Assembly: GCA_013115135.1 (NCBI GenBank)
Contig: JABANP010000141.1
Location: 50,590 to 114,589 of the forward strand
Direction: 5' to 3'
Length of the DNA stretch: 64,000 bases
Source: Perkinsus olseni
Lineage: Eukaryota > Perkinsozoa > Perkinsida > Perkinsidae
This document shows positions 2,347 to 64,000 of the stretch, piece after piece. The first letter of the stretch is position 1. Each line of letters starts with the position of its first letter. The notes beneath the pieces were generated by a model. The model saw nothing but the letters and a program-made list of their open reading frames with translations. It ran no database searches and was not told the origin of the DNA. Made by a program: the position numbers and the translations under genes.

Positions 2347-5300
2347 GTGGCATTTCGTCTCACAGATATCGATTCAATTGTGAATGTTGAGTTGCCTGAC
2401 GGAGATGACATCAGAATGATAGCGGCATGCCGAGACTGTCTGCTTGCTCTCGGTGGGCTCCTCGGGAATTACACGGTATCACTGGGGATCGAACCCGGGA
2501 CCTTCTCAGGGAGATCTGGCAAGTTGTACAGCGCGGCCACTGAGATCTCACAGTCGCCAGCGCCGCGCGGGGTCGGCGGCGCTGCGAGCCTCCCTGATGG
2601 TAACGGATGGAAGGAGGTGAAAGCTGCTATAGGTCGGATTGATCCGCAGAAGTGCAGCGCTTTAGATACCATCTTTTCGCGAAATCACAATTCGGTACAT
2701 CGCTTGTGGGGGCAGCACATGCTTCGCAATCACACAAGGAGGCGATGTGTAGGTCGTTGCCAGCTGCTGCCTGACAGAATTTCGATTCCACGAGAATTAG
2801 CAAGATTATGGCGATCTGAGTAGATATTCTTGGGGGACAAATTTTGCGGGGGAGGCGGCCAACTTGGGATCCATCAGCTCAGTACCACGACTCTCGAGTC
2901 GATTGACTAAGCTGAAGGTGTGAAGAGGTCCCGGGTTCAAATCCCATCGGGAGTTTTTCTCTATTAAGATCCTCAAGATAGCAGTAGGAGGTAACCACTG
3001 CCTCGGAATAACAGGATTACAGCAATGCGTGGCTTGGGGTGAAAACACATGTGGCCAGTTAGGGGTGAGTTGAGGAAACGCAAGATTAGCAAGATTCCCT
3101 AGTTTCTTCGTAATTTCTTTGTAGATCGGCAAGAAACTCTCGTCGAGCAACCAGCCACTCTTCGTGAATATGCCGGCTCGAACAGATAAGGAAAGTAGGG
3201 CGGAGCGAAGCGATTACCATTCACCATTTTCGCTCAGACTGTGATGATCATCATATGACTGTCGTTGATATCGCTGCTGGCTGGGCCCACTCCGTCTTTG
3301 TGGACAATAACGGACATGCATACAGGTCACTCTGCCTCGAGCGGTGGCGTATCTTAGGTCGAACCCTGCCTCTTACGAACCAAATACGTCTAGTACTGGC
3401 CTATTCACCCAACCGCGAGATCCCCAACCTTCCCTTCCTCAGTTTTGGTCTAAATTCTCATGGTCAACTCGGACTGAATGACACCCGATCTCGCTGGTCA
3501 CCGGAGGTGATCACGACACTTCGGTAGGCCTTAAGGGTCTATCGATTCTGGGGTATCTTTGTCGCTCAGAGAGGTCACGCATATTGGTTGTGGTAAGCTG
3601 TTCACAGCAGTGTGGGCGATGGGAACAACGAGAGCCTCTCGGGGAGCCAGGGGCGTCTACTATGCTGGGAAGGTCGACCTGCTCACTGTTAATGCTGATC
3701 TCTGAGGGTGACAAGGATATCTTCAGAATCTTCGCAGCGCGCCACCGGTTGGCGCGGTCGTTGATGCGGACCCTGAGGAGCCGAATGAGGTGACAGCGGC
3801 CACTAAGGATCACGATGGACTTTTCTCGAAGAAGTTTGTGAGACGGCAGGAGCGTAGGTGCCGATGGCGAACGACCTGGAGTGGCGATGCGCACGCGTGC
3901 AGGTCCGCATATTTTCACCGCCACTGGCAATTCGACGGCGAAATTCACAGGGCCACTGGTGAGAGTCCGATGAGCTTATCATGGTCATTTACGGATTTCA
4001 GGATATGCGTCCGCCGTTTCCGTCGGAGTATACTCTGTCGGCGCCTATTACTGCTATATCAAGCATGCTAGCCTCGGATAATGTGAGCCCTGTGCTCGGT
4101 ATCATCATACCATCTTTTTCGCAAATCATCAGATGGTGTACGTCTTCGCTTCGACACATATAGCAGCGCTCTCTCCGAGTATTGCAAACCTCTCCGGTGG
4201 TACTCGAGTGGCCATTCATGTTACGGGTGAGTGTATCTTCCAACCTTGCAGGATACAAACTAGCTCAAGTTGCTCTCAGGCCTATCATATCCTTCTTCAA
4301 CCCCCAGTTCCCTCGGCCAGGCTCGTGTCCGTCTGACCCGTCAAAGCCCAGCACTTGACCACATCGTTGATGCCCAGATTGATGTCGGGGTGGCCCCGTG
4401 GGGCTTCTCACGTCCACTCTCTCCTTCAGGAACTTTCACCTGGACGGATCTGTTTCGACTTTCCCGACCTCTCCCTCTCCCCACTGGCGCCACTGGTAGA
4501 GTCGGCAACCGCTCCCACCTTCCTGGGCGTCCAGGTGGGTTCGATCCGAGGGAGAGGGAGTTCTCTGTTATTTTTTTCCGTGGGAATTTCTGCTCAGTTA
4601 TCGTTGGACGACGGGCTCTCCTGGACGGCCTTGGACGAGACTCAGCCAAAAATAGCCGTGATGAAGTTCCCGGAAAGGCAGCTTGTGGTAAGTCCTGATT
4701 TGTTCCTTCCTGACCTATTCCGAATCTTGCGCGCTCGACCTGAAGATTCCTCCCAGGTGGTGCCCAACTGTGCTTCTATGACTGGTGGTGCCCCATTGAC
4801 TGTGTTCCTGCCCGGAGCCCCTGGCCTGACGGTCGAAGGCGAGCCCGCTGGCGGCCCGCCTGCCCTTCCTGATAACCTCCCGGTGGGCGTGACGGCATGT
4901 GACAGCATCTCTCGTCTCGGCACTTGACATCTAGAGCATCCTCTAATGGAATGTCACACCCGAGACGAGTCCCTCCAGTGACGTCATCCCCTTCCAATCT
5001 GCCGCCCGTCTCCTCTCGGTGCCCCCCCCACTCTCACCGGGGTTTTCTGTTCAGGATGATTCGTTATTGGCACTCTTCACCATTGAGTGCCGGTCGAAGG
5101 CTGTTGACTCGGAGGACTTCGATGACGTGTGAGTGTAGCGGAGCCTCCTGATTCGCCTCCCCTTTGATTCATAGCCTCTGAGGGTTCCACCTGACTGACT
5201 TGGTTTCCGGCATGTGTGGCACAACCTGATTCCTCAGTATTTGCTTAAGAATCTCATGGGACGGAATCCTTGGGGTCGTGTTGGCGCACCCTTGGAAGTC

Positions 5301-8300
5301 TCCTCTGCCTCGCCCAATACGGAGAGAATCGCCCCACCTGGGTTTCGAACCCGGGACCTCTGCTGTGTTCGCTATAGCAAGCATTTTGCAGGTACGCTGA
5401 CCGCGAGATGCTTGTGGATGCCAAGCCGAGGGAGAAGGTGAAAATCAAGGTACCTGGTTGGAGGTCTATTAATGTAACCCAGAGGACCCGGTGAGCTTCG
5501 CTCCGCCGTATCTTTCAGGGAGTCTCTTGCATCTGCCCCTCCTTCGACCCCGACATCATCGGCTCGTCAGCTGGTGTTTCCGTCCAAGTCAGCCTCGATG
5601 AGGGCCAGACCTTGCTGGGTCCGCCCCTTCCCTTCAAGGTGAATCCTCCTTTAGCGGAGCGAAGTTTTTTCTGTCGTTCCGTTTAGGTATTTTCGTTCAT
5701 GATTGATCGCATCGTGCCGGCTGTGGGCGAAGCGGCTGTCTCGACGAGAATGGAGGTTGTCCTGGGCGGCCGGATGCCGGTGGTGACAAAGAAGCCGAGG
5801 ATTGGAGTAAAGCTCCGCGACACAATTTGTCGCGCGCCGCGAAAATTACATTAGGCTATCCTGCCTGGTAAGAGCGATGCAGCGGGTCGGAGACGGAGAC
5901 CCCTGATGAGGGAAATGCCGGAGGCAGTCGCGGAGGTGAGAGCTTCGCTCCGCCCGAAAATTGAATAGTTTCTCGATGTACATGCGTGCATACCAACTTT
6001 TTCGAAACTCTCGCTGGTCATGGTTATAGCCAGGCTAGGGTGGACGGCACCATCCGCATCTTCTTCACGATGCCCAGCTTGGAAGATTTACTTCCGGAAA
6101 AGACTGTGGCTGTCGCCGAGGTGAGCGTATCTTGCGCATGCGTGCAAGTCATGAGTTGTCCTGTATGTTGCTAGAGATACCTGAAGATTCCGATCGAAGT
6201 ATCTCTGAATGACGGTGCTGAGTACTCGGAGGACGGATTTTCGTTCACGTGAGGCATGGGCAATGAATTTTGTGGCGCAGTGACTTTCAGTTACCTCTTG
6301 CCGCAGGGAGCCGAGGGAGGTCAGCAATTTTCACGCGTCGCTCCGCTAGGCATTTTTCAGATTCGCCCACCTTCACGGCAGCCCCCGGGCTTGTATAAGA
6401 AGCCTGAGGAGTGGACGGAGGGTGAGGAGGCTGAATTAATGAGAACAGAAATCGCTTCGCTCCGCCTTTCTCAGAGGACAACAGGATTGACGTATCCGCT
6501 GCGATACCGGCTGGGACAGAGATGTGCGTCCGGCTGACGGAAGGCGATTTGCCAGTGGATCTAGTATATGCCGACGCGAAGATCAGGCTCAGGTGAGACA
6601 CCCTTCGCTGTGCGCACTTCGACCCTTAGAATAGGGTTTTCCGCGCGCTCTTGCAACTGCAAATTCGCAACTGCAAATTCATGAAGTTGCTGCAGTTGCG
6701 CTATAGCCCTAATTCACGTGAAGTTGCGCGACACAATCGATCAGGTGGGCGGGCGAGAAGTGTGGTCTGCGCAGTAAGGTCGAGACAGTTGTCCGCCGAA
6801 GGCGGACCGACAAAATTGACTCAGTGTTCTTTCGCTCGCTCAGGGATCGATGGATGCCCTTCGGTGGAGAGTAAGATGATATTCCTGCAATCTGGCGAGG
6901 AGTAGCTGGCTCTATGAGAACTCCGGGTCGCCCAATAAGTATTTTATGGCGCGCGCGCAGCGCGCGAAAGAAAATTTCCTACTTCATGCAGTTGCAAATT
7001 CAGCAACTGCAAATTCATGCAGTTGCACCGGTGGTGTTGAAGTTGAATTAGGTGCAAACCCTACCTTAGAATCTTCGCTGTGCGTGTAGATACGTTCTTG
7101 ATGGAGAAGATGAGGCAGAGGGTGCGGAATTGAAGCCTCCGGCGGATCTGGAAGTGAATTCTCCCTTGAGTGCGAAGCGTATCTTTTAACCTCACAGGTC
7201 ATGGCGGGAATCTCCTTCCACGGAGAGAAGGATATCCCGGTGGTTGAGTTCACCACTCCTGACGTCACGGCGTCGCAGTTGGCCATGGAGTTGGGGACGG
7301 TGGTTGCGATGGAGGTGTCCTTTGCAATAGACGGCCAACACTTCCATGAGGTGACCTCCAGAGTCGGCCCAATGCAGTTATCGGACAGTCAGGTTGTTGA
7401 TGACGACGGCCAGGCTGTGCGGTTTCTCTGCGAAGTATCTTCAGACTCATGATGCGCACGAGTGAGGTCGTCATCGTGACTGACAGAGTCTTGTGTTTGG
7501 AGCGAATCTAGCGGAGCGAAGCTTTCGTCGTTTCTTTTGTGTGTCGTCATGGTTCGGCAGTCATCGTCTGGCCGAGAAGAACTGAACCCTGTGGTCGAGG
7601 AGGTAGGCGGATGGTCGTCGGAGTGCAGACGCAATGGCACTCTCAGTTACGATTAAACCCTTCCGTGGACCCGGACCGGGAAGACCCGGGAAACGATGCC
7701 TTGCTTGACTTCTATAGCGCTGTTGGTCGAGAGGACGAGGAGCTAGTCCGGTAATCCGAAGGTCCATGGTTCGAGTCCCCTGTCGAATTTGATCTGCCCC
7801 TTGGCAGGTCGATGGTAGCTGACGGACGGCCTCTCGTCAAGTTGAACTCACTGAGAGCCTCGCCGCTGCTTCTGTCTTTGTGGAACAACAACCCTCGAAT
7901 TCTATCGCTGCTGTTGGACGCCGGGGCTGATGGAGTAAGCGGCGACAAGAGAAGCGGCTTCGCTCCGCTGCATCATGCTGCCATGTGTCAAGGAGCCTCC
8001 GAGTGTATCAAGGTAAGCCCACATTGACCGTCTTGTGTGGAGGACCCCTTCCCTTCGGGTTAGCTGCTGGTCCAGTATGATGCTGATCTGTTATGTCGGA
8101 CTTCGAGAGGAGGCTACACGCCCCTCTTCCTGGCCTGCGCATTGGGGATCACGGATAACGTGGCAACACTACTCGCTATGGCATTGCAGAGTGAGACCGC
8201 GCTCACGCCTTGACCTATTTCATATCTTGCGTGCTTGACCAGAAGATTTTCAGGAGCTCCTGCCGTATCGAGCCTGCCCGGCAGAGCGTTCATTGAGTCC

Positions 8301-9492: not shown

Positions 9493-12400
9493 TGTCGACC
9501 ATTCGACCAGACCTATCGAATTCCCTTCCCTGCCTTGCCGCTACTACCGTCCCTGAGAAGAATGAAAAACAACAACAGAATACCCTGGAAGGTTGCCAAC
9601 CTACTCCCGCGGACGGTGAGCCATTTCGTCTGCCTCTCTCTGTTCAATAGGCCCCCTGCTCCCCGGAGACCCCCTGCTGCTCTCCGGGTGAGCGGTCGCG
9701 CTTTTGAATTCTCGCGCGCCCTGAAATTGTCAGCACTGTGGAAGGCGGGGGGGGGCAGGGTGGCGCTCAGTTAACCAATTCTGAAATTCATAGTGGAATC
9801 TGGAGTTGCATATTGCTTGTAGAAAAAAATCCAGAATCGGCCCTGAGTCTCGAAAGTAGCTTATCGAACAGGAGGATGGCGTGTGGAATACCTCGTTGAT
9901 TTCAGAATCTTCACCAACCTCCTCGGCTCCAATAGGGGCTGCTGCTGCTGCCTCCAACTCTAATCGTCCTTCCAGTGGCCGGATACCGGTCCTATTCCTC
10001 CTGTCGGTAGATAATGTCGGCAGGTTGATTGGAAAACAAGGAAGGATTATCAATCAGGTTAGCGGTCGGGAGAGTACCATCTCTTCGCTTATTGATGAGC
10101 CCTTTCGCCCTTTTATTGATAGGCCTGAGGTTGACCTATTTCGTATCTTACTAGGATGTTGGCTGGGATATGCCGTCGCCTGTGCCTTCCAGAAGAGGAC
10201 TTCGATCCTCAACGCGTGGAGAGGGAGATCTTCCGAGCTGACTCTAAGGTGAAGTTTTCCACATCCTCCGCCCCGGAGACCCTCGTTAACTTCCCATCCC
10301 TCAGGTTTCGTCCGATACCTGCTGCATTTGCCTGCTCATCCCGGGTAAGCTCCATCAGCGCCCACTAGCATCTCGCACAGCTGAGTCCAGGTAGTACGCT
10401 GCCGGGCATGATCGGTCATGAAGGACAGACCGTGAGGAGTCTCCAAGCCGATACAGGCTGCATAATTCAATTCGTCACAGAGCCTGTTGTTGGCACTCCC
10501 AACTTTAGAAGGTCAGCCAGTGAGGGGTACCGACTTGAGTGACCGTGTTGACGATGTAGGTGCCGCATCACTGGATGCTGGCCGAACCTGGGTAGGGCAG
10601 TGATTGCTGTCGTTGAGAAATTGCAAGATTTGCAAGATCGAGGACGAGCTGGGGTTTCCTTCCCCGGTGGATGGGACCCTCTCACCAACCCAGGAAGACT
10701 GGAAGATAACGAGTTGGCCGCTAATTGTAAGTCGCCCGTTGGATTGAACCCGGGAGCTTCGCAGTGAAGTCGGACGGTCTGCCCTGTTGATCAATCAGCT
10801 CCCTCTTCAAGTCGCGACATTGGCCTGCCCTCTCTCGCTGTTATCGAGCCGAGTAGATTCCTGGTGTCACCTCAAGAGGCCGCCTGGCTCCTCGGCAAGT
10901 CGGGTAGGTCAAGTTCCTGTCCGCCGTCAACGATCGGGAGGCCCCTCTTAGGTCGAAAAATTAATCGCCTCCGCGACAAGTACTCTCCCGCCGTATCCAT
11001 CAACGTTGATACGGTCACTCCGGAATGGAGGGTAGTACTACTTATCGATCATCCGGGCGCGCGATAAGGCAGTTTTCTCTTCAGGTGGTGTCGGTTGGAC
11101 TATCTTCACCTTATTCCCGTTCGGCCTCTCTAAGGAAGGCTCACGCCCTGCTGGACCTCCTCGGCGATCTCGAAAGGTGGGTCATCCATTTTAGGATTTC
11201 TTAACCTGTCGGTGGTCTCCTCAATGGCTCTCTCGTGGTGATATCTTCATTTCTATTGTCCACCACCTTCGACCTTAGGGCTGCCGGGGACGTATGGCAA
11301 GGCATGGCAAACTCCTCTGACGGCCCACCGTCGTATGTAATGTTAGATACCCGACACCGGCCGTGATCGGTCCGAATGCTTCTTCGGTGGAGGCCAACTT
11401 CTTCCTCCGTCATTCTGGCTCTAAAATGAAGGTGTTGATTCCACCGGAGCTCTTCGGGGCGGTGATGGGCCGTGGTGGAGAGAGGATGCGCAGACTTACT
11501 AGGGCCACAGGAGCCGCTATACAGAAGTACCGCCGCTGGGATTCGAACCTGCGAAGGGGTGGAGCTCACCGTTTTTCAGAGTTAGACCCTCGGACTCCCC
11601 TTTATCCACTGGAGACACTCTGACGGAGTCGGTTATTCGCAGGACTCTGAGCTCCCACCGACTCATCGAAATTTCGGGCACGTCTAAGCAGAAGGCTGGT
11701 AAGTCGACCCGTCAGCAATCATCCGAAATCTGATGGGGGGGTACCGGGTACTATGATCACCCTCCTTCGAGAAACCCCTACGGGACCCAACTTCCCTACT
11801 CGCCAATAATTAGGTCTTCGGTGCGAATAGCGTACAACGCTGGTGAGGTGTATGACTCGTTGACTACAAATAGCTGTTGGCATGATAGAATTCAAAGCTC
11901 GTGCCCCCCGACTGTATCTTCGTCCTGTGGTAGCCTCCTCTCATCTCATCTGTGTTCCTCAGACGCTATCTTGAGGGTGGTCCAAATCATGGATCGCAAA
12001 GCTCTGGACATCGCCGGCATCCCGGATGACGACCGTAAGGATTACTACCCGAATAGTTCATCGTCATCCATCTCATAATTCTTTAGGTGACTCTTCTTCC
12101 GGCAGCCCATCCGTCGCCTCCCCCCGCTCCCCTTCCACCAGCGTTCATCGTGGTGGTAACAATTCCAACGGCATTACGGAGAGGCTCAGTGAGTGTGTTA
12201 TTGTTATTGAGCAAACGGTTGAGTGTGGCGGTAGGTGCTTTCGAAAGGAGTGTCCGCGAGGCCCAGTCGATGCCACAGCTCATCAACACCTATGTCACGA
12301 TGACGGTGAGAATTCAAGCCGGTCAATCGAATGGTCCGGGTTCAATCCCTTCAAAGAACGCTCAGAATATCGTGTTCGGTAGAGCTTTAGTCATCGCCAC

Positions 12401-15315: not shown

Positions 15316-18300
15316 TCACCAGACGGAACCGATGGTTTTGAAGCCGTTAAAGGCAACAACAATACCGAGGACGACAAGGAGGAAGGTATCAGCCGACACA
15401 GTCTGGGCTCCTCCATCGAGGGTCGTACCGGCGACAGCCTGAACAACACAAATTAAAACAAAGATGAGATGACGAGCTTACGAAGATCAATCCCAGATTG
15501 CAGAGAGCCCAGAAGAGAACCAGATAGGTCCTGAACTCATTGCGCTGGGCTTGAACGTCTTTTTGCGAAACGTCATTATTGTCGAGGCCTTTGGTACCTA
15601 CAGGGAAAGAACCTTCGAGATGGTCGCGATGGTGACTGCCGCTCACCCCAGGAAAGGTCGTGTGTGTTACAAAAGGCGAAGACTTGGAATACGTTGATGT
15701 AAGTTGGCGCCATGAACGTGTATTGGAAGTACGTGAGGAGTATATGATGTCCCTGAGGTGACAGTGACGATGAGGGATGGGAAAGACGGACTTACTTCAC
15801 AGTGAAGAAAAGCAACAATGACGTAGCTGGCGACCGCCGCGATGCCGACTGCCGCAAGGACGATATCGTCCGACTCGATGACGTTATAGACGGCAAGAGC
15901 AAACGTGCCCATCATGAAAACACCAAAAACAAGTGAGATTAGAACGTACCTGAGGAGGGGGTGGAGGGGAAGAGGCGGCTGGAAGGGGACTTACAAGACC
16001 CGGAGGGACCGTCGAGGAGCGTCAGGCGCCGTACCCATGGCGAGGAGGAAAATACAGAACATGAGGAGGAGGTATCTGACGGGAACATGCAGTCAGGGAT
16101 ATGCAGAGATGAAGCCGCTATGCCACGCGGGACTAGAACGGCGGTCAAGCACAGCGACAACTGAGCCTTGCCTCGAATCCCAGCTCTGCCACATGGCATA
16201 GCGGATTCATTTCGCATCCTCTCGTTATGAGACTTACATAAACTTGATGACGACAAAGACGATGTCGGCGCCCTCGAAGAGATGGTCACCATCGTTAACG
16301 AGGAAGTCATCCCATAGGATGAGGAAAGTGAGGTAGAAGACGCCCACCAGGAACCACGTCATAATGGTGTTGAAAATATAGTAACTGAGAGGAGAATGAA
16401 TGGCGAATGAGATCGACAGAATGACTTTACATTAGTTCGATCATCAGAGCGAGTTTGCGGATGACGTTGTGACGGGTGGTGAAGATCCTGAATTGGAATA
16501 GCCCCTGCCAGAGTGAGAAGAGTTGGGCGAAGAAGGAGCCGTTCAGCCATCGCCGACGTTGCTTGATGAGAGCAGCGCATGTGTCCGGCACCTGATTTAG
16601 GAAGAGTGAGTCAGCTTCTCTGTAGCGGATCGCTTACATCCGTCACGGCCACCGAGCCTTTGACGTATCTCAGAACGTTGGCAGCCGTTCGACTGCAGAC
16701 CAGCTCCAGTGCTAAGATACGGTCTTCTGCCAAGTACCTTCAGTAGAGGCAATTTCGCGGCGCAGTGACGGAATGGGAAGCTCACATATTTCCAAGGAAG
16801 GGGTTGACGACACCGCCATGGGTGACGCTCTTAAAGTAAGGTACGATGGGTCGCTTGGCAGAGGTTGGTCCAAGCTCGGGAGGAGAGAGAGCCGACCACC
16901 GATAGGCTGAGAATGCACCGGGTAAGACCTGATAGAAAAACTGTAAAATAGCCAAGTTGGCTATGACTTACACTGATGAAACCAAATGAAGATTCACAGG
17001 CCTTGTCGAAGCAGTTGCCAACTTTGTACTCGAAGTTCTGCGAGGCCACGTACCTGAAGAAAACCTTAGAGCGTGAGGGTTCGCAGCAACGACGGGGACT
17101 TACCAGTTGTAGAAGATGTTGATGGGGTGCAAATTGCGGTCGACTGTGATTTCACCGCAGCAACCGGCCACCTTGTCGCTGGCATCCATAGCGTCAATCA
17201 ACTTCACTATTGCGTTCGAGTATGGTCGGGTACCTGCACCGAGGAAATAGTCTAACCCATCTTGTATCTTACATGATTCGACCTAAGATACTTACCAGCA
17301 TCAAGACACACACAATATAACTCTTCATGAACCGTCTCCTCCGCTCTTTCATTCATCGTTCGATAGAAGTGATGGGCGAATCCTTCGAAGAACCAAAGGT
17401 GCGTATCCAGCTTGCCAGCGTTGAACTCCTTCAAGGCAAACATCATCTGCAATGGCGGGTAATTCTCGTAGTGGATGACGTTCTCGAAGAGGTGCACATA
17501 AACCGGCTGGCCGTTGTCGACTGTGAAGCGAGGATGGTCACGGGAGGCGCTCTTGTCGGGAATTCTGTCAAAGTTATATCGGTCGATGGGCTGAATCCTC
17601 CCGGAGATGTCCATCAGACCTTCTTCGCGATACATCTCCTCGAGGTCAAGATACATGCCCATGCGCTGCAAGGCTTGCAGGTTGTTGTAGGCGCCGTTAA
17701 TTCTGGTTCGACCATCGGCGAGGAGACAGACGCAGATCTCCTCCCACTTGTAGTGCGTCTCAGCGACGAACTTGCGGACGTTCTCCAAGACACCGACGAG
17801 AGTGCCGGGGACACCGCCGGACTCCATGGCTTGCTCCTTGAAAGCCTCGGGGCGGTCGTTGTCGGGATTCTGCTGAATGAAAGTCAGACCAGGTCGACGG
17901 ACGTCATCAAGTCCACCGCAGGGCTCTTGGTACATGGTGATGCCTGCTGGGGAACGGTGAGAAGAGGGTGGGGGGCCGACGACTCACCGATAAAAACTTT
18001 TATTTTGGCGTTGGGGTCCTCGATGAACTTCAATTTGAAGGGCGCCGGCGGAGGCATCCCTTCGAAGTACTCCGTGTAGAAGTCAGAGTCGAACATCTGG
18101 TCCAGGAATCTTGGGAACTTGAGACCTCGCTCCTGGACAATGACAATGAGGAAAGATACGCTAGGGCCAGCTTACGGCGTAGTTGATGTTCTTATGGTAG
18201 ACAAGCTCCTCCTGAGAGACCGTGATGGGAGTGTACCGGAGCTGATTGTCATCACGATTCAGGTCGAAGCCTTGGATTTGCTGAGAAAAGATACCACTAA

Positions 18301-18423
18301 GTCACGCAGTTGAGCTAATTTGTATCTTCCTACCATGCGACCAAGATACAGCGGGTCAATATTGATATAGGAAGAGTATCCTCCATGCGAGGGGTGGATG
18401 TGCGGATGAGGTCGATTGGCCAT
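15316..18423 (-). CDS. Chitin synthase (GT2 family), multi-exon
   Basis: Minus-strand exons give an integral membrane glycosyltransferase that would make chitin from UDP-GlcNAc. Landmarks in order: start [59 protein letters not shown]; the donor-site LAEDRIL; the acceptor and processivity motif [10 protein letters not shown]; then several transmembrane helices. [17 protein letters not shown] and NTHDLSWG follow, the latter a chitin-synthase hallmark. The protein ends GFKTIGSVW. All catalytic motifs appear intact. More than ten short introns interrupt it; two of them (17234-17295, 18281-18333) are family A elements. No myosin head or chitin-binding module is visible. Site of action is inferred as the plasma membrane or secretory vesicles, supplying cell-wall or cyst-wall chitin. 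Confidence 0.85.
17234..17295 (-). repeat. Intron made of hairpin element, family A (inverted)
   Basis: A 62-nt minus-strand intron starting GTAAGTATCTTAGGTCG and containing TGTAAGATAC. The arms TATCTTA and TAAGATA are perfect complements. Relative to the 4.7-kb copy the element is in the opposite orientation to the host gene, and it overlaps the 5' splice site. Confidence 0.75.
18281..18349 (-). repeat. Family A element spanning an exon-intron border
   Basis: The 53-nt first intron of chitin synthase is 18281-18333. One arm (18343-18349) lies in the coding exon, where it encodes part of LYLGRM, and the other arm (GTATCTT, 18322-18328) lies in the intron. The splice donor sits in the hairpin loop. 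Confidence 0.6.
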
Positions 18424-19607
18424 ATTAAAAACTCCGACTGAATTTTTTGAAGGGTCACTCAGAACATGTCCCGAGTGCCGAACCCGACGCTAGAATATCT
18501 GAGGTCGAAGCATGCAGGATTCAAGTCAGGTCAAGTTGAAGCATACACCAACGAAACATGCGCTGCTACGCTGACGAATTGACCTAATTGCATGAAAATA
18601 TTTCGTGCATCCAAGTTGAAGTGGAAGCAACAAACCATCGTTTTCGTCCAGCATGTCGACAACTACGGGACCCCTTCGGCTCAAGTTGACCTTCTCGAGC
18701 GGCTCATTCGAGGCGGGAGGATATCAGTCGATGATGATTGTGGTAGTATCTTGGGGTTGAGCGTGCAAGATTCAAGTTCGGTCAGACGAAGTACATGTAT
18801 GAATTATCTGTTCTATCCACATTGCGAGTCTTGTCAGCGGTATCGTCGGTTCTTCATTCTTTCTCGTTAGTGTCTTGCGGACGCTACTGTTGGAGACGGG
18901 TCATAGGCGTTTTATTTTTGGTTCGTAAAAACTATCAGACGTGATTTTTCTTACACAAGAGTAAGGTCTTTTGAGTGTGTTTGCTTGAGCTCCGCTGTTA
19001 GTTCAACCAATCCCCCTCCAACTCGAGTCCATCGAATTCAAAGCGAGTTTGGGAGGGCTATCATTCCCGCCGTAACCGCCGAACTCGACTTTTTTTGGTT
19101 TAGAGGAGGGACGAAAGAAGGACCGTTCAATTGGGTTTCTGGCAGCCAATATTCGATAGTTATCGAATTCTGTTTTTTCGTCGAAAGCTGCGAGTATAGT
19201 GCGGGCGAATCATAATCGTACCCGGCTCGGCGCGAGAATATCTTAGGTTGAAGCATGCAGGATACGTTTAGGTCCCGCCGACGGTCCGTACTGTATCGGA
19301 TCTCCTGCATCATCTCCAGTCCCGGCCATATCTCTCCCACTTGAAGGGCCAATGCTCTCAGTGGTCCGTATCGATCGATGGTTTTCGACTCCCCAACGAG
19401 AGTGTCGTGCGGGAGGTACTGAAGGGAGGAGTTTGCTCGTGATTCCTTGTAGTTGTGTGCATCCCGTTCATCCACAATAGTCATATCACCAGCCTCAATT
19501 CTCAGTTTTTACCTCAATTCTCCTAATTTTCGTTTTTTCGGGTTTTCCAAAGAATTTTGATCTGAACTGGTGAAACATGCTCAAAATTTTTCTTCCTGAA
19601 ATGTTTA
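18424..19607. other. Divergent intergenic region with three family A-like copies
   Basis: Between the chitin synthase start and the first coilin-like exon. It contains diverged family A elements at about 18490-18540, 18745-18790 and 19225-19275, each with TATCT(T)(A)GG, a TTGAAGC or TTGAGCG core and a GCAGGAT or GCAAGATTC arm. They could lie in untranslated introns or be intergenic insertions. No coding gene is recognised. Confidence 0.45.
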
Positions 19608-37300: not shown

Positions 37301-37420
37301 TGAGGGGAGAAGGGAGCTGCCCGAAGGAGGCTTGGAAGCATAGTTTAACATCCAGCACACCGAGTAACGCAAAACCAGATGAAGCACTGAGTAACGAGGG
37401 ACGACTCCAAATGATGGGCC

Positions 37421-37726: not shown

Positions 37727-37794
37727 GATAATCCCTCAACAAGACAGGAATACCGCACTTTCGACAACTCGACATAATAAGGATGATGAAACAG

Positions 37795-39324: not shown

Positions 39325-40052
39325 CACCAACACTCCCCTCGATGACAGCTCGGCACCTCAAGGTCCTTCGGCACGACAATACAGCGGAGCATTGCTACGT
39401 GAAGCTTTACACCCATCCTCGCCCTTGCTGGGCCAGCGACAAAGGCTTGGCTCGCCGCCCCGAACGTACGACTTGCCTACGGCGCCATCAACACTCACCA
39501 AACACGACACCGCATAGAGTAGGCACAGAGAGGTGACTCATCTGAATTACGACAATGTCAGAACGCACACGTGAAATAAAACTTCTATTGCTTCATTCGC
39601 CAGAAGAAACTCGGATGGCGTAAACAGCCACGGAGGTCCAAGAGCAATTCCTAACTAGTAGATGCCTTCAACCGAACTGCCACGGCAAACGCTCGTGTCT
39701 GTCACTGCCGGTCCGGCATCTTCTGGCGAGTCTCTTCTGGCGAGCATATCCTTTCGAGGGTCTCGGTGACAGTGCTTGAGAGCAATTCCGCGAGTTCACC
39801 TGAGATTAGCGACGGGAAAAGACAGCAGAATCAACAGTATCGATCCAATGAACACTCTGCCAGAAGTCCAGTACATGAAAACAAGGCAAGTAAAGAGTAG
39901 TATCGTATTAGGGTGTCCTATAATCACATAACAAAGCTGTCTACAGCGGGAACACGAGCCTTGAAGAGCACTAGACAGCCGTGGTCAAGAGATGTACAAT
40001 GTACATTGTACATTACAAATCCAACCGTCTGTTAACATATGGCTATATATAC
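39325..40052. other. Intergenic region
   Basis: No gene recognised. The last 85 bases (from about 39967) match the flank at 46710-46789, marking the edge of the duplicated transporter unit. A palindrome GTACAATGTACATTGTAC lies near 39992-40012. Confidence 0.5.
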
Positions 40053-45848: not shown

Positions 45849-46299
45849 CTCTATACCATTCAGAAGCCTATTTAGCGGGTAGGGCTACATACGGCGCTCT
45901 AGGATATCACATTAACGAGTCGACAGCAAATTGGCGGTAGGGTCGAAATGTGAGGATTGGCGAACAAGGAAACCATTTCACCGGCTGGTCTCGAATGAGG
46001 AATTCAACTCCACGAATAAGGCCCTCAATTTTCTGAAGTCAATTTCGCCGAGTCGTCGCAAGCTGAGAATCACAGCGGGGAGATCGCGTTGTGCGGCTCG
46101 AGTTGATCCCTGAATTTGACGTCCTTATCGGCGGAATTGACTTGCTCATTTGAGGCCGGCCGCTAAGATGACTTCTTTGTTCGCCAATTGGATCTTCCCA
46201 TCTCGACCCTACCGCCAATTTGCTGTCTCGATAATGTGATATCCTGGAGCTCCGTATAGGCAGCCCTACCCGCCAAATAGGCACCTGCATGGTATAGAT
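45849..46299. repeat. Large imperfect inverted repeat (foldback)
   Basis: The left arm starts CTCTATACCATTCAG and runs through CAGCAAATTGGCGGTAGGG (about 45926-45943). The right arm repeats it inverted, with CCCTACCGCCAATTTGCTG at about 46207-46225 and ending at GGTATAG near 46297. Similarity is high in the outer 120 bp and weaker towards a central loop near 46050-46100. It could be a MITE-like foldback element or a locus for a long hairpin transcript. Confidence 0.75.
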
Positions 46300-46789
46300 T
46301 TAGCGAAACTGCCTCTGCTCACACGCCCTGAGGCGAGAATATGCCACAAGCCAACTTGTTTTGTATCCTGCCAGAGCCGACCTCGGATATCTATACCGCT
46401 TCCGTGGCATAGCGGCCTCAAAGTGTCATTGCTCATTGCTTCTGAAGACAAGTCGAGGGGCATATATATTTCGGGTTTTCCTACAATTACGAGTGACATC
46501 AGACACGCTAATGAAAATGAATTTGACCACAAAGCGTAATTTAGGCATTGGTATTACTACAGTCTATTGAAATGGCTCTGCTGCTGCTTGCGCACTACTC
46601 AACTTCTTCAAAGTTGAGGCGTAACTGTTCTTACTCTGAACACAACACACAAGGCTGGTGATGGGAGTGAACGGAGACGTCCCAGTGTTGGTAGCAGTAG
46701 TAAGGTAGGTCTGTGAGAGCACTAGACAGCCGTAGTGAAGAGATTTGCAGCAGAAATCCAACCGTCTGTTAACATATGGCTATATATAC
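46300..46789. other. Intergenic region
   Basis: No gene recognised. The last 80 bases are shared with the flank before transporter copy 2. Confidence 0.4.
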
Positions 46790-48220
46790 TCACGAGTTGT
46801 ATTGCCTCTCATTCTTAACCTTCAGCCATATGAGGGCGACCAAGAAGTTAACACCCACCACCACCGTCCAGACTGCCATGTAGAGCCACTGACGACCCTC
46901 AGAGGATTCAGAGATCGCCGCAGATAGGAAGGGTGAGACCAAACCCGTCAAGCCGGCGATGGCGCTGAGCAATCCCGAGGCCGAGCCACGGTAGAGCGGA
47001 GGGTAGACGGCGGGTGTGAGGACGTAGATAATACACCAACAGGGAATGAGGAAGAAGTAGATGGCACACGATGCAACAGCTACTACCACAGGAGCATTAA
47101 AATACGACGATAAGGTGCACCAAAGACAAGCTAGGCAAGCACAACCTTGGAAGATGCGTAAACAAACGCTCATTGACATCTTCTTCAGCATGTACGCGAT
47201 GACCGCTGTTCCGGGGAGCTCACAGAGGACCATCAAAAAGAGCGTAAAATTAGGGTTAAGACCAGATTCGACCAGGAAGCCTGGAAGGAAAAGAGTGAGC
47301 CCCCAGTAGGCGGTAGCCTGCAGTAACCAAATAAAGCACAAAGGCAACGTAGCACGGGCGAACTCTTCTCCGTGGTAGATGTCCCCGAGTGCCTCAAAGA
47401 AGCCGAGCTTCTTCGACTCAGCCGACGACGATTTATCGACAACCTCCTCCTCAGCCCTGACCGTGAACTCATCGAGACCGGGCACCGTATGCTCGTCGCA
47501 TTTATTCTCTTCGGCCATGTGGAGTAGCACCTTGTGGGCTTCGGATACCTTCCTCCGTGACATCAGATACCGCGGAGTCTCGCAACGGAAGTACCACCTG
47601 AGGATGCCGGTGGGGATGAGTGGAGCGGCAGCCAGTATGAGCAGAACTCTCCATTGGGGGATGTTGGAGAAGGAGAGGTCAGCAAGATTAACCCCAGCCA
47701 AGTAGAGGACACCAATACAGCCACCGACGAAGACGACGGTCGAGTAAAGGCATCTGTGAGATTCTGGAGTGAACTCAACATAGATGAGATAGTCCAACGA
47801 GGAGAGACCACCGAGGCCTATGGCGACGATGCACCGGAACATTACCAGCGACCAGAAACTCCAGGAGAAGGCAGAGGCAATGCCAGCCAGGCCCGAGATC
47901 AAGATCGTCACCACGAACGGCCATTTACGGCCGATACAATCGCTGAGGTACCCGAAAAGTGTCGAGGAGAGCATCGAAAGAAGTGAGGTTAGGAAGGGGA
48001 AGAAGGCATAATCAGTTTGACTAAGGTTATATTCCTTCATGATTCCGCCTTGGATGAAGACCACAACAAGGAGCTCTGCACAGACCGCGAAGTAGCCCAC
48101 TGAACATAGGAGTAGCAGCCAGTATTGGAACTTGCCATAGCCAATGTGATCGATGACCTGCTCGACGTAGGTGGCAGAGGTAGCCACTGAGGAGATCGAG
48201 GCGCTTCGGGACTCCACCAT
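46790..48220 (-). CDS. MFS transporter, SVOP/SLC22-like, array copy 4
   Basis: Intronless. The frame is open to 48379, but the ATG at 48220 (MVESRSASISSVATSATYVE) matches the starts of the other copies and follows a CCACC context, giving about 476 aa. It has GYLSDCIGRKWPF (Cys in place of Arg in the DR-GRK motif) and CETPRYLMSRRK. It is nearly identical to copy 2 from residue 130 onwards. The DR to DC change in the conserved 2-3 loop could affect transport and is unusual for the family. Confidence 0.85.
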   Translation of the reverse strand: MVESRSASISSVATSATYVEQVIDHIGYGKFQYWLLLLCSVGYFAVCAELLVVVFIQGGIMKEYNLSQTDYAFFPFLTSLLSMLSSTLFGYLSDCIGRKWPFVVTILISGLAGIASAFSWSFWSLVMFRCIVAIGLGGLSSLDYLIYVEFTPESHRCLYSTVVFVGGCIGVLYLAGVNLADLSFSNIPQWRVLLILAAAPLIPTGILRWYFRCETPRYLMSRRKVSEAHKVLLHMAEENKCDEHTVPGLDEFTVRAEEEVVDKSSSAESKKLGFFEALGDIYHGEEFARATLPLCFIWLLQATAYWGLTLFLPGFLVESGLNPNFTLFLMVLCELPGTAVIAYMLKKMSMSVCLRIFQGCACLACLWCTLSSYFNAPVVVAVASCAIYFFLIPCWCIIYVLTPAVYPPLYRGSASGLLSAIAGLTGLVSPFLSAAISESSEGRQWLYMAVWTVVVGVNFLVALIWLKVKNERQYNS

Positions 48221-49623
48221 GGAAAAAGAAGAGGGGAAACTACGAGGGCGATTGGCGAGGCTGAACGAACGAGTTGGATCGAATATCGTCGAAAACGGGA
48301 GGGAGACAACAACGCTACATACAACACAACCACTGTCTGCGGAACATCCGCATTCAATTTCACGTAGAATGCCCCACATTCATGTCGCGACACGACCCAT
48401 CTGTACGTTTCCCACTGCGGTTCCGATATCTTGGCTTTATAGCGAGGGCACTTGACACCACGGAGAAGAAACCTTTGCGGAGTCTTCGAAGTGATTCCAA
48501 TCGAATTGGAAATCGCGGAGCGATGCAGTGTGCGCTGAGGCGTCTTCTCCGCACAAAGCTCCTCCCGATCTCCAAGATGTTCACCTCGAACGACCTCGAG
48601 AGTTGCATAGTGAAAAATATCCTGTGCTATGCGGCTGAACTCCGCTGCCGAGATTGCCAGGTGAGCTTAGAGAGGTGGAGAAGGCTGAGCTGGTGTAGGC
48701 AACGCCTTTGGGATGAAGGGTGGCCCCTTCAAGCAATACCGGGACGGGTTACTTATGGAACGTTGAAGAAGAAATCTAGGCCGTTGACGCTGCGGAAGTG
48801 ACGTCGAGGTGGGACGACAGCTGGGCGAACGACGACTGCATAGGAGAGTGTATGTACAGCAACGGTAGTCGCTGAGAGATTACGTCATTTCCGTGCCCAG
48901 TGAGTTTTCTATTACGATGCCACATAGCAATGAGTCCAGTGGAATTGGGGAGGTTGGAGACCCAACAGGGCCCGCTAGCACTGGAAAGATGTAACTATGC
49001 AGGTCATTGAAGACGATCACGGCCGCCTATGCTTTGCCTGCAGCTGTTGTTGCTATGGCAAACATGGGCATATGTTGCGTACCGTACGCCATAGGTATGG
49101 ACGCTTTACGTCACGATGAACTTAGGTCCCCAGGGTGGTTATGTAATAGGGCATCAGAGACCAACCCCTCCCTCCACAGCTACTATAATATCACTGGAGT
49201 TCGGCTGTGGTAGCCCGCCGGACGCCCCTCTCACCACAGCTACCAGTCCTCTCCCTTCAGCCGTCCCTCCGTGGGTTAGTAACAGACGAGTATCCACATG
49301 ACAACGATGCCCAGCTGATGGCCTCGCTTCATGAGTACCTTTCGAAGATGACTCCGCCAAAACGGACGCCGGGAAACGACGACATCGAAGAGAACAACTT
49401 GATGATGCTGCGTAACAGTCGCTGCAGCTCGTTGCTGTTGTCCCTGTCCCATCCAGAGCTCGCCACACAGCAAAACAACAACACCCAAGTTAGTCAGCAC
49501 ACCCTCGTAAAAAAGTATGAGAATCATGACATCATGGGAACAACATCATCGCTGAGCTACGATGACAGTAGGAAGAAGAGTGTCCTCATCATGACCAGAG
49601 GGACCTGCATGCCTCGGTTAGTT
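48221..49623. other. Intergenic region with a possible exon
   Basis: A plus-strand ATG at 48523 opens MQCALRRLLRTKLLPISKMF and ends at a good donor (GATTGCCAG/GTGAGC, 48660). It may be the first exon of a small unrecognised gene. Another open plus-strand frame at 49207-49560 enters the antisense of the protease. I cannot assign either. Confidence 0.3.
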
Positions 49624-53091: not shown

Positions 53092-55042
53092 ATGTCAAAA
53101 ATCTTCCGCGTGCGCAAGATACTCTGCAGATGTGTCCTGATGATGATGGTTGTGGTGATGGTGAATGGTTGGGATGTTGATGGTCATGAGGCTGTGGGTA
53201 TGGTAGCGATGTCGGCCTTGGACGGACGAGCGTCTAACCAGTTGAAGAGGTTACTGCAGGGAAAAGATGCTGTCGAGGATGCGGGTAGGATGCAGCCGTA
53301 GTGGGAATTCCGACAGGCGATGGGATCGAACGTGGGACTTTCCGAGTGTTGAGCGAGCGTCCTGACCATTAGGCCATGAGTATCTTTCAGGATGGGCCCA
53401 CAAGGCAGAGTCGGCCATCCCGTGGTCGAAGCCACTCCATTTTATACAGCAGCCTGAGCCCTTCTCGAACACTCTGGTTATCAACGACATCACATGCCCT
53501 GACGGCCAATGCCTCTTAGAAGCCATCAAGATATTCTACGACCAAGCTAAAGGGGACACTTCCAAGGTCATAGCTAGAGGTGTCAGAATCATACTCATCG
53601 TGCAGCATATCTCAGTCCTCCCAGAAGGACAGGTTGATGAGGTCGTCAACGAGGCTGCCAGTACAGGTTACAGATGCCGATGCCGTACGGTTCCTCATCA
53701 ACCTCATAGGGGACATGCATCAACCCCTTCATGAAGGCTCTCTGAGTAGTACTGGGAGCGGCCATCTAAGCGTTGGCCCGTTCGTAGTCAAGATCCTAGA
53801 CGGGAAGTGTTCATGCTGTCATTCGTTCAGCTGACGACTTCGGTAGGAAGACTCTGGTGAAGTTGCCCAATGGTTCGGTGATGTCCCTCTATGAGGTAGT
53901 ACAGGGGAACGCCCACAGTCACTGCCTGGAAGGCCTCGATATCTTTCGTAAGCAAGAACTAGTGCTATTGCTGTGACGGTTACTGTGGGGTGGCCGCTCC
54001 CATAGTCTGGGGTTCGTTAACGAAACTTCGTGGATCGTCTGCGGAGTAGTCGAGGTGACCTTGTCTTTAGTTGTGGGACCACGACATCATCCAGTCGACG
54101 ATTCAGAATCATCCGCAGTTTTGGTGGAGCGGCTGGACTCATATTCAGAGGGTGGACACGAATGTAAGCTATTTTGTATCTTGCATGGTTGGACATAAGA
54201 TTCTTGTCCCACTAGACTTACAACGCGGACAAGAAGGCTTGGCAGGACGACAACACTGCGGCTCTCACAAAATGGTGTCAGGAAAATGCCGAGTTTGCGA
54301 ACCAATTGTACTAGCCGGGGATCGAACCCGGGACCTTCAGCGTGTTCTGTTTTAGCATCTACACCAACCCGTTGACCAATGAACGCTTCCCGCTCGGCGG
54401 TGATGCTCCTATCGAGGTGGATGCCGCTCTGTTGGACAAGTGGCGTCAGTTGCTGATACAGCGCATCCTCCTCGCCGGCTCGAGGACGGCCATCGTATTA
54501 AATGATATCCTGGAGTCTAGCGCCGCTCCTGGCTTACGATCGGTAATACTATCGGCTGGATCCCTCACGCCCGACTCGTGTAGATGATCCTCTGCACCTC
54601 TAGGATTACTCTCCACCACCGCTCATCTCTCAAAACGATCGTCGGAACCACAGCATAGTTGAACAATATTCTCATTAGCGGAACATGCCATCGGGCGCGG
54701 ATTTCCTCTAATGTTTTACGAAGCCAACTGGAAGGATATGCTGTAGAGCTCTTGGTGGATTTGCCCTCTCTTCAGGGAAGCATCGTCACGCCACCGGTGG
54801 CCGATGAGATCGAGATCGATGATTTGGAGTTCGGCAACGGCCAGCCCGCTCGACGGCGTCAGAAATTGGATACCACGTCGGACATCCTCCTGCAGCTGGG
54901 GGTCCTCGCAGTTGTGGTTGTCATTGGTTTGGCCGCTTACTTGGTCTTCATGATGGTCTCCAAGGGTAAGGGGAAGGCTGGTGAGGCCGGCGGGCTCAGG
55001 CTGCCGACGGTCGTACAGAGCAAAAAGGAAATGCTCGATTGA
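53092..55042 (+). CDS. S1/P1-type nuclease with a C-terminal membrane anchor
   Basis: Starts MSKIFRVRKILCR and has a signal peptide that would leave Trp as the mature N-terminus (WDVDGHEAVG). In S1/P1 enzymes this Trp and the nearby His bind zinc. Further zinc-site motifs: RFLINLIGDMHQPLHEG and LWDHDIIQ, with WWSGW after. LLDKWRQLLIQRILLAGSRT is the last helix of the family. An extra tail has an acidic linker (EIEIDDLEFG), one transmembrane helix (GVLAVVVVIGLAAYLVFMMV) and a short basic cytosolic end. The enzyme cleaves single-stranded nucleic acids and 3'-nucleotides outside the cell or in the endomembrane lumen. The layout matches trypanosomatid 3'-nucleotidase/nucleases used in purine salvage. 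At least six introns, some with tRNA-like or family A sequence. Confidence 0.75.
53321..53395 (-). repeat. tRNA-like intronic sequence (Glu-like A box)
   Basis: Minus strand has TGGCCTAATGGTCAGGA, close to the D arm and A box of tRNA-Glu, and 35 nt later the B box CGTTCGATCCC. The anticodon stem does not pair. It sits in an intron of the S1/P1 nuclease that ends at TATCTTTCAG. Confidence 0.5.
54164..54215 (+). repeat. Intron made of hairpin element, family A
   Basis: A 52-nt intron, GTAAGCTATTTTGTATCTTG to CCACTAG, that joins RVDTN to TYNADKKAW in frame. Nearly the whole intron is the element, with the left arm TATCTTG and right arm TAAGATTC. Confidence 0.75.
54316..54385 (-). repeat. tRNA-Val-like intronic sequence
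   Basis: Minus strand reads TTGGTGTAGATG (A-box-like), then CAG-AACACG-CTG with an AAC anticodon position, AAGGTCCC and the B box GGGTTCGATCCCC. It matches tRNA-Val(AAC) closely over the anticodon to T arm but has no paired acceptor stem. Confidence 0.55.
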
Positions 55043-55406: not shown

Positions 55407-56552
55407 ATGAACAGCCTCTTCCTTTCGGCGACGGCCCTTCAGCAGCAGCGTTCGCCACCAAGGCCCAACTCTCCAGCTACAAATAGTAGTATCGGAGGGG
55501 TACACCAACCTGAGAGTTCTGGGAAATGTGGTACGGAGAGATCAGTACGCGTCTATTTCATTGATAATACGTATCGTGAGGTCCGTCGTTTATCGGCCAA
55601 CACGACGGTTTCGGAGCTCCTGTATAAACTACAGCAGAAGGACGCTTCCGTTGGGCGGATGAATTTGTATTTTGTGGCGAGCGGTCGTCGAACAGTCTGC
55701 GAACGGAAGCTGGAGGAGTCTGAAAGGCCTCTGGCCATCGTCACGGAATCTGATGGGCATGGCAAGCTCGTAGCTCATCCGCCAGGGGAAAAGATACCAT
55801 CGAAGATACTTCCTGAGGAGGTGGAGGATGTCGCTGGGGATGTGCTCAGGAGGGGCACTCTTGATAAACTATCGTCCAATGGGAAGAAGTGGAAGCCTCG
55901 GGAGTTCACGTTACGGTCGTCGACGCTGGCCTATCAGAGCGGGGACAAACCGGCGAGGGTATTGGAGTTGGTGAATTGCGAGAAAGTTGTCGCTGGTGAC
56001 GGGCGGAGCGATGCTGGGGAGACGAAGAGAATCTTTAGGGTTGTCATGGACACACGTACGCTGACCCTGCGAGCTGCCACTACCTCAGACCGGGATGTTT
56101 GGGTCCTGTCGGTGGCCAAGAGCGCTGCGATATTGAAGGAGAATCGGATACTCGAGCAAGCGTGTCGGGCGATGAGGGAGAATAATAAAAGGCGGATGGA
56201 TTCCGAGATCAAGGGGTTGTTCTCGCTGACGCAGAGTTTGGATTCTCTCCTCAGCTTCTCTTGCGAGGCTCGGGACGTGTTCTTGAGCCATACTACGGAC
56301 TGTATTGACAATGGTGGTGGGCAGGGGGGAGATGAAATCGATTACGAGGGCGTGCGCGACTATGTCCTGGGGTATGAGGACCCGGATGTGCGGCAAAATA
56401 TGAGTGAAGAGGAGTATGCGAAGGTCGATGGTTGGTTGAGTAGGACGGCGTTTCCGAACATAGTCAACCGGATGTCTTTTTTGACACGTCTGGCTCAGAT
56501 CTACGCCTCCAAACCGCGTCGATCGGATAGTTATTCGCAGTATCTTGACTAG
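55407..56552 (+). CDS. RA-like and PH domain protein
   Basis: Single exon, 381 aa. A Ras-association/ubiquitin-like part comes first: RVYFIDNTYREVRRL, TTVSELLYKLQQK and LYFVASGRR (residues about 47-110). A PH domain follows: RRGTLDKLSSNGKKWKPREF, LRSSTLAYQSG, RIFRVVMDTRTLTLRA and DRDVWVLSVAKSA (about 145-260). The C-terminal 120 residues are helical and charged. The order RA then PH is that of Grb7/10/14 and MRL adaptor proteins, which bind small GTPases and phosphoinositides; no SH2 domain is present. The last three codons and the stop lie inside a family A hairpin element (56540-56567). Confidence 0.65.
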   Translation: MNSLFLSATALQQQRSPPRPNSPATNSSIGGVHQPESSGKCGTERSVRVYFIDNTYREVRRLSANTTVSELLYKLQQKDASVGRMNLYFVASGRRTVCERKLEESERPLAIVTESDGHGKLVAHPPGEKIPSKILPEEVEDVAGDVLRRGTLDKLSSNGKKWKPREFTLRSSTLAYQSGDKPARVLELVNCEKVVAGDGRSDAGETKRIFRVVMDTRTLTLRAATTSDRDVWVLSVAKSAAILKENRILEQACRAMRENNKRRMDSEIKGLFSLTQSLDSLLSFSCEARDVFLSHTTDCIDNGGGQGGDEIDYEGVRDYVLGYEDPDVRQNMSEEEYAKVDGWLSRTAFPNIVNRMSFLTRLAQIYASKPRRSDSYSQYLD

Positions 56553-56575
56553 ACGCATGTAAGATACAGAATAGG
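56540..56575. repeat. Family A element containing a stop codon
   Basis: Arms GTATCTT (56540-56546) and TAAGATAC (56560-56567) with an AGAATAGGTCA tag. The coding frame reads TAT CTT GAC TAG into it, so the element supplies the stop codon of the RA-PH gene. Confidence 0.65.
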
Positions 56576-56685
56576 TCAGGTTCGGTACCACTCATGTAAT
56601 ATTGATCACCATTCTCTACCTTTTCCCCGATTTCTCGTCGTGTTTAACTGCGGTTCCTCGTGCATTTTCAAGATTGTTTTGCTCT

Positions 56686-61557: not shown

Positions 61558-61642
61558 ACGTTTCTTATTATTACCATGATCGATTCGCTTTGTCAACACA
61601 ACCGGCGATGAGGGACAGTAGCACAGAAACTCATGACGTCAA

Positions 61643-63035: not shown

Positions 63036-64000
63036 TTACGTAGGGATCTCCATATTCAACGGTGCCGGTCCGAGCCTGATCCTGCCTGAGTGATCGTAGT
63101 GGCTGCCGTGGCAAGGGCAGAAGTATCCACCGTAAAGGCCTTGGTCGGGGTAGGGCACACAACCGAGATGGGTGCAAACTCCCAACATGACCAACCATTC
63201 GGGCTTCTTCACGCGGTCCTTGTCGCGCTCGGGGTCCCTCAGGCTGTTCACGATGGCATCATCAGCGGTCGCGGCATCGATCATAGCTTGTGTACCTGCA
63301 GTCGATGTTGACCTACTTCGTATCTTACACGGTTCAAGCTAAGATACCACTCTTACGTCTTCTCACAAAGACCGGTTTTCCTCTCCATTTGACGACAAAA
63401 TTCTGGCCTGGTTGTATGCCTCTCAGATCCACTTCGATAACCCCAGCAGCGATAGCGTCACGAGCCGGCCACAAACCATGGACGACCTTAACGACCGTGC
63501 CTGCCACGAGTGATGAACATACCAATAGGGAAGAAAATCAATTACTACCTCTCAAAAATGCCAAGCCAATAAGACCGAACATGCCCGTAGCGAAGTAGTG
63601 GAATGGCCGACGATCAGCGTGCCAGGTTGGCAGGCGAGTGTGACGGAAATCTAGATGGCCTTCCGGGACGCAGGTGTCCGGGCAGGGGATGTTCTCGGCG
63701 TATCCTACGGGACGGAAGTTATCCGGGTTGAACCTAAAGATACGAGTATCTTTCATGCTGGCTCATCACGGTTAAGGTCGACCTTGCAATAGACAAGATA
63801 GCAGGTTCTCCCTCTCTCTTCCACACATCAGTACGAGTGACATTGGCACCTGCAGGGATACTGACACCTCTAGCTGTTAAACGGGGACTTACCAGCGGCC
63901 AACTCCCCCTTAGCAACATCAGGCTTCCTCGGGAAGACAGGCTCACGAAGATGCTCATAATGGCAGTAGACATACCTGAGCAGAGTACAAGATACCAACC
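63036..64000 (-). CDS. UQCRFS1: Rieske iron-sulfur subunit of complex III (5' end outside window)
   Basis: Minus-strand exons, ending at TAA 63036-63038. Reading order: [37 protein letters not shown] then [20 protein letters not shown] (helix start); [37 protein letters not shown]; then the 2Fe-2S site CTHLGCVPY and [12 protein letters not shown], ending [10 protein letters not shown]. Both Cys-x-His boxes and the CPCHGS loop are intact. The protein passes electrons from ubiquinol to cytochrome c1 in the inner mitochondrial membrane. At least four introns are visible; 63296-63356 is a family A element. The first exon(s) lie beyond 64000. Confidence 0.9.
63296..63356 (-). repeat. Intron made of hairpin element, family A (inverted)
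   Basis: A 61-nt intron that joins VFVRR and RTQAMIDAA exactly at the conserved FVR-RTQ of Rieske proteins, so its borders are certain. It starts GTAAGAGTGGTATCTTAGC and has TGTAAGATACGAAGTAGGTC, the best-preserved copy of the family. Confidence 0.85.

Follow-up and report, generated by a model that had tools for sequence, protein, structure and literature searches.

A dispersed 40-nt repeat in short introns of unrelated Perkinsus olseni genes and its partial likeness to introners

Short introns in unrelated genes of one stretch of Perkinsus olseni DNA (64,000 nucleotides, the window) carry copies of the same short palindromic sequence, element A. The question raised by this locus is whether insertion of the element built these introns, the introner view proposed in a sequence-only reading of seven of them. 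All seven stretches are present in the window, and all carry related sequence. The dispersal of the family, its unrelated hosts, its occurrence in both orientations relative to genes and the existence of introns made mostly of the element were borne out by the introns of conserved proteins and by pattern counts.

Element A has the consensus TTGACCTATTTCGTATCTTnCAnGCTTnAACCTAAGATAC, about 40 nt long, and is dispersed through the 61.48 Mb genome (968 contigs). Alignment of 49 copies gave the consensus nnTTGACCTATTTCGTATCTTnCAnGCTTnAACCTAAGATAC with a mean column identity of 70% and little conservation beyond it; the 49 are what remained of 62 non-redundant copies scoring 12 bits or more once 13, mostly with a poor second arm, were omitted. 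The element is asymmetric. A conserved tag and arm, TTGACCTATTTYGTATCTT, is followed by a loop and a partly complementary arm, AAGATAC, both of which are more variable. Genome-wide, the tag plus first arm (18 specified bases, at most two mismatches, duplicated regions included) gave 711 matches (344 forward, 367 reverse) against 4 for the reversed pattern (4 and 0). A 20-mer of the element gave 134 matches, duplicated regions again counted in, and a pattern with 21 specified bases that takes in the loop and the two arms gave 31; the controls gave 0 in each case. A profile made from 46 copies, which included those of the window and of L026 (overlapping L050), was run on 264 kb, comprising the window and 20 arbitrary 10-kb stretches. 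It found 23 matches of at least 10 bits, 13 of them inside the window and 10 in the 200 kb outside, four of the latter lying in L050, which overlaps a locus previously known to contain matches. Neither a single dinucleotide-preserving shuffle nor the reversed sequence gave any such match with the same profile. The motif GTATCTT occurs 103 times in the 264 kb; base composition predicts 29 occurrences, and the reversed motif has 18. At L049, similarity of the elements between otherwise different loci is confined to blocks of about 38–57 bp with 84–93% identity. A chance origin of the similarity is ruled out by the genome-wide pattern counts and the profile controls.

Other repeated sequences were noted alongside. 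Two stretches of L050, 4148–4308 (about 160 bp) and 4446–4580 (about 135 bp), belong to dispersed repeats with more than 10 copies each, the first up to 94% and the second up to 80% identical. An 89-bp block with 90–91% identity is common to L012/L017 and L018:1461–1549, the flanks being otherwise unrelated; by eye it comprises about 22 nt of exon and an element A intron, and L017 and L018 lie 7.4 kb apart (C945). In the window, 35854–48379 holds four gene copies, 79–99% identical over 300 nt, and the two that were scanned are major-facilitator transporters. Between two of the four gene copies, nested inverted repeats at 45850–46298 (arms of 76, 42, 36 and 31 nt, 76–92% complementary) form a foldback-like element.

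Table 1. Introns and element A copies in the window, and protein-fixed element introns at other loci
Feature	Position or locus	Strand	Length (nt)	Element A	Remarks
Candidate intron, additional	4227..4279	+	53	antisense, 4239–4270
Candidate intron	4688..4756	+	69	sense, 4711–4751	compensated arm pair GAATCTT/AAGATTC
Likely intron, ankyrin-type gene	8191..8253	+	63	sense, 8209–8250
Candidate intron	10058..10154	+		10130–10158	tag and first arm only
Chitin synthase intron	17234..17295	-	62	antisense, 17255–17293	phase 1; Pfam PF01644 (6e-21) spans junction
Chitin synthase likely intron	18281..18333	-	53	antisense, 18309–18349	straddles donor; in frame
Element A copy	18493..18535	-		14.3 bits	upstream of chitin synthase exons
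Element A copy	18744..18775	-		18.1 bits
Element A copy	19236..19266	-		17.5 bits
Weak element A copy	46357..46391	+		10.8 bits
S1/P1-type nuclease intron	54164..54215	+	52	sense, 54167–54204	tag altered to donor GTAAGC
Second nuclease intron	54308..54355	+	48	none	tRNA-like motif (family B)
Element A copy	56539..56580	-		32.4 bits
Rieske iron-sulfur subunit intron	63296..63356	-	61	antisense, 63307–63349, 37.9 bits
Tsr1/BMS1-type gene intron	L021		75	sense	PF04950, 3.3e-39
NOL10 intron	L022		60	antisense	PF23098, 9.4e-16
Mitochondrial carrier, two introns	L050		53 and 64	sense	PF00153, 4.8e-14
Mitochondrial carrier, last intron	L050		48	antisense	PF00153, 4.9e-6

Eight GT-AG introns of 48–75 nt, made mostly of element A, were fixed by conserved protein in six unrelated genes, four with the element in sense and four in antisense orientation (Table 1). 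These introns were selected for flanks readable as known proteins, and four of 10 proteins scanned against Pfam had no match. The p68-like helicase intron of L005 (53 nt, antisense) is convincing by eye, had nothing in Pfam and was left out of the eight. Removal is exact at the protein level, as judged from a transcriptome protein for the Rieske gene and from protein homology for the other seven introns. The Rieske junction had been held to be fixed by protein conservation, and this was confirmed. Over its 130 aa the spliced fragment shows 100% identity to P0001, an MMETSP transcriptome protein that differs from the genome at a single residue beyond the fragment. PDB Rieske chains align across the junction, the best match being 9fq7, a P. 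marinus structure. In the nuclease, the PF02265 match (1–112; E 1.1e-5, 25.9 bits, under the curated cut-off of 29.5) spans the 54164 junction. All three carrier junctions are in agreement with P0121 (FOZ60_001180), an annotated protein of P. olseni, and, except for one junction-adjacent residue, with the P. marinus relative P0122.

The position of the element relative to the splice sites varies, the distance ranging from 0 to 23 nt in the eight introns. In the S1/P1 nuclease intron and the first sense carrier intron, the tag TTGACC reads GTAAGC/GTAACC and, by sequence, forms the donor itself; in the remaining six the donor lies 3–15 nt outside the element.

Among the seven introns of the sequence-only reading, three (63296, 17234 and 54164) are thus protein-fixed and two (8191 and 18281) are supported, while 4688 and 10058 stay candidates, the unspliced frame being open in both. 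Splicing of 8191–8253 joins the frame (97 against 49 open codons), with an ankyrin match (1.6e-4) in the upstream exon. At 18281–18333 the element is present but crosses the splice donor and extends 16 nt into the exon; Pfam gave no match there, and a chitin synthase paralog, L051, has a possible acceptor at the equivalent place. The 4688–4756 candidate has good splice sites and coding flanks. The fragment named as a scaffold protein among the proposed hosts has no Pfam match at E 0.01. At 10058–10154, where 130 codons are open without splicing, the tag and first arm are present and the second arm is absent; the KH protein named as host rests on a weak match that stops at the proposed junction. 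The arms given for all seven, GTATCTTA and TAAGATAC, are exact in 17234–17295 and 63296–63356 only, and variants occupy the other introns (GAATCTT/AAGATTC at 4688, ATATCTT/AAGATTT at 8191, GTATCTT/AAGATTC at 54164). The additional candidate at 4227–4279 has donor and acceptor scores of 6.0 and 6.1 and weak coding flanks.

Association with splice sites was also measured across the family, using the splice-site scores of an ab initio gene finder for both the splice-pair and the containing-intron tests. The gene finder, trained on sequence that included the window, called 33% of bases exon and predicted some false long introns; of 23 elements it put 9 in introns, where 3.1 would be expected, a rough figure. 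A splice-site pair required, in one orientation, a donor no more than 25 nt away and an acceptor no more than 30 nt away, and the set comprised 62 non-redundant elements of at least 14 bits, less one short of flank. At the lowest threshold a pair was found near 23 of 61 elements compared with 131 of 1220 control positions (P about 1e-7). At the two stricter thresholds the counts were 11 of 61 elements and 38 of 1220 controls, then 7 of 61 and 11 of 1220, both differences being significant. The matches thus lie often near intron borders, though not always, 38 of the 61 elements having no pair nearby at the lowest threshold. For 85 elements, counting duplicates, the best containing-intron scores exceeded those of 510 random positions (P = 3.4e-7), with no excess of elements at scores of 20 or above (5% against 4%).

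Pairs in sense and antisense orientation were about equally frequent (12 and 11 of 61). Shared splicing signals alone, already disfavoured in the sequence-only reading, are rejected as the source of the likeness: the element lies in both orientations within protein-fixed introns and has pairs equally often either way. As a separate observation, in the introns predicted by our own gene finder in the window and L031–L050, GT frequently comes directly after the acceptor (G 62%, T 57%) and AG directly before the donor, so that introns tend to have AGGT on both sides, a feature of dinoflagellates.

The lengths of the introns bear on how the element came to lie in them. Median length is 60.5 nt in the eight element introns and 47.5 nt, just 13 nt less, in eight introns of these genes that lack the element (43, 43, 44, 47, 48, 48, 49 and 50 nt; one 48-nt intron carries a tRNA-like motif, the 47 was hand-counted, some borders were read against the paralog L051 and not fixed by Pfam, and one long minisatellite intron of the carrier gene is omitted). 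Accumulation of the element in pre-existing introns, with later deletion trimming the length, is an explanation that we regard as rather unlikely, though it deserves weight. A 48-nt intron that received the element would reach about 88 nt, compared with the observed median. Subtraction of 40 nt leaves 8–35 nt in the eight introns, less than the shortest P. marinus intron reported, 39 nt (PMC3101222). With such short totals, simple insertion into existing introns does not explain the element introns. Three observations speak for pre-existing introns: element ends seldom coincide with splice sites, every comparable element is common to duplicate copies, and the 17234 intron agrees in position and phase with an intron of the paralog L051 (C531:24200–27700). 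The intron of the paralog is unrelated in sequence and carries a tRNA-like motif in place of element A, whose best score anywhere in L051 is 5.8 bits. The shared position weighs against a recent gain at this site. L051 also has at least four introns that are missing from the window gene.

Comparison of duplicated regions gave the same indication of age. All 14 aligned elements were present in the duplicate copy at 3–7% divergence and a fifteenth is shared by coordinates, most pairs having been found through a tag match in both copies, which biases towards sharing. Sites with and without the element, a proposed mark of intron gain, were not found between duplicated regions: there were no empty sites in L003/L015, L005/L008/L009, L010/L014, L012/L017 and L051/L052, nor in C20/C370 or L027 versus C192. 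In the C370 copy the spacing of the three carrier introns is matched. On C71, a distant carrier relative can be aligned without a break across both sense junctions at only 28% identity, and the match to a relative on C30 is limited to the exon between these two junctions. Target-site duplications, likewise suggested as a check, were not found at the element edges in the 42 copies tested: matches of 4 nt numbered 11 where 7.0 are expected (P = 0.075), and none reached 6 nt. By eye, GTGC stands on both sides of the element in the last carrier intron; this does not generalise. The consensus has no terminal inverted repeats, the tag lying outside the palindrome without a counterpart at the other end. 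Sharing between duplicates, the shared paralog position and the absence of target-site duplications make the family look old, and no sign of recent movement was seen in the duplicate-region comparisons.

Between duplicates, elements differ slightly less than their surroundings (23/682 against 687/13547). This, together with the better conservation of tag and arm than of loop and second arm, could be attributed to a functional intronic motif, selected for a role in splicing or transcription and copied by duplication or conversion. We consider such a motif improbable, as the two gene-relative orientations are about equal both near splice-site pairs and among the eight introns, other introns of the same genes have no element, and its three occurrences in one carrier gene are at different places. 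Local conversion between copies was considered separately and rejected; two diverged elements (L027/C192) hinted at it, and overall divergence is lower in elements.

The palindrome itself was examined in the 49-copy consensus alignment, which omitted 13 of the 62 copies, mostly with a poor second arm. In the eight-pair stem 81.1% of cells are paired, against 33–50% with the partner slid, and isolated compensated pairs occur, such as that at 4688. These features would be expected if the hairpin were conserved as an RNA structure uniting the splice sites, as proposed for Amoebophrya introners. However, shuffling of partners among copies still gave 80.2% paired, with 55 of 500 shuffles as high as 81.1%, and covariation is slight: cells changed on both sides of the stem number 9 against 4.4 in shuffles (9/500), and the covariation score was reached in 41/500. 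RNAalifold predicted no consensus structure for element A, and in the protein-fixed introns the stem generally stops short of the splice sites. Conservation of the hairpin is, on these results, very improbable. The name hairpin element is fair for a DNA palindrome and does not in itself argue for a functional RNA.

These results suggest, at slightly better than an even chance, that family A is an old, degenerate, introner-like, short non-autonomous dispersed repeat whose insertions into coding sequence became introns. Copies would have spread through the genome and landed in genes in both orientations, and those landing in coding sequence would persist as short GT-AG introns consisting largely of element A. 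For splicing, the spliceosome may use sites in the adjoining sequence, or a donor arising by few changes within the tag (TTGACC to GTAACC/GTAAGC). We infer that insertion of the element made introns and that the spread was DNA-based; the step from insertion to intron rests on intron length and orientation. The introner interpretation is thus partly supported. Unrelated hosts, both orientations and short length stand for it, whereas target-site duplications, terminal inverted repeats and a presence/absence site were not found in the copies compared.

Element A is accompanied by a second short motif, that of family B (GGTCCCGGGTTCGAATCCC), which resembles the 3′ half of a tRNA and has 19 matches (at most two mismatches) in the 264 kb. 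One of these matches lies inside a tRNA-Arg gene, 24048–24122. In the window the motif also occurs in the 54308–54355 nuclease intron and near 2484, 2933, 5340, 7767 and 11538, and it is present in the L051 chitin synthase intron. At L027 (C20:126771–129649), eight element A copies and several tRNA-like motifs occur within 2.9 kb, and all eight copies are shared with the C192 copy of the region. L027:2355–2519 consists of four tandem 41-nt units, each starting like an antisense element (CGTATCTTAGGTCGA). C192 is 61 bp longer than the C20 copy. About 20 bp of this are small indels (gaps of at most 14) in the compared part, and the final 360 bases show no length difference. The other 41 bp fall in the tandem-unit stretch; by length, not letters, one extra 41-nt unit in C192 is the likely explanation. 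A broader proposal would be that most of the sequence of Perkinsus introns comes from a small number of tiny repeat families, A and the tRNA-like B among them, which recolonise long-lived sites repeatedly. Elements A and B would then swap at one position, as the chitin synthase genes of the window (A) and C531 (B-like) may illustrate, and elements could multiply in place as tandem units, as at L027. We regard this proposal as unlikely.

Element A resembles several known systems in part. Like MITEs it is short, non-coding, dispersed and palindromic; unlike them it showed no terminal inverted repeats or target-site duplications. With the introner-like elements of Dothideomycetes it shares the occurrence of similar introns in unrelated genes and a predicted secondary structure, but those elements are longer and nearly identical, whereas element A introns are short and diverged. 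The genome of P. chesapeaki is public. That of P. marinus is public as well, according to PMC7789003, and the question of intron gain is therefore directly testable.

Among the open-licence papers that the searches listed, no report of such a family in Perkinsus was found. Perkinsids diverge close to the base of the dinoflagellate line (PMC3101222), a line with published introners in Amoebophrya (PMC7789003) and in Symbiodinium (PMC9860276). If family A is introner-like, intron building by mobile sequences would extend to the perkinsid branch. The Amoebophrya introners (PMC7789003) are alike in their alveolate host, intronic repeats, inverted repeats and hairpin. There the inverted repeats stand at the intron ends, with direct repeats of 3–5 nt over the borders of mainly non-canonical introns; in element A the palindrome is internal, and all eight introns are GT-AG.

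The survey of 3,325 genomes (PMC9860276) found target-site duplications in 49 of 130 introner families. Element A differs from the surveyed introners in having no target-site duplication, terminal inverted repeat or presence/absence site in the copies compared, and in usually stopping short of the splice site. By the border filter of that survey, with the element taken as the 40-nt consensus, similarity starts, at both splice sites, no farther than 10 nt into the intron or 5 nt into the exon in one of the eight introns, the last of the carrier gene. An asymmetric 40-nt element in which neither kind of repeat was detected could escape a survey based on borders. The likeness to the introners of the same source lies in similar introns in unrelated genes, in either orientation, in family median lengths that begin at 30 nt and in a preference for aquatic hosts.
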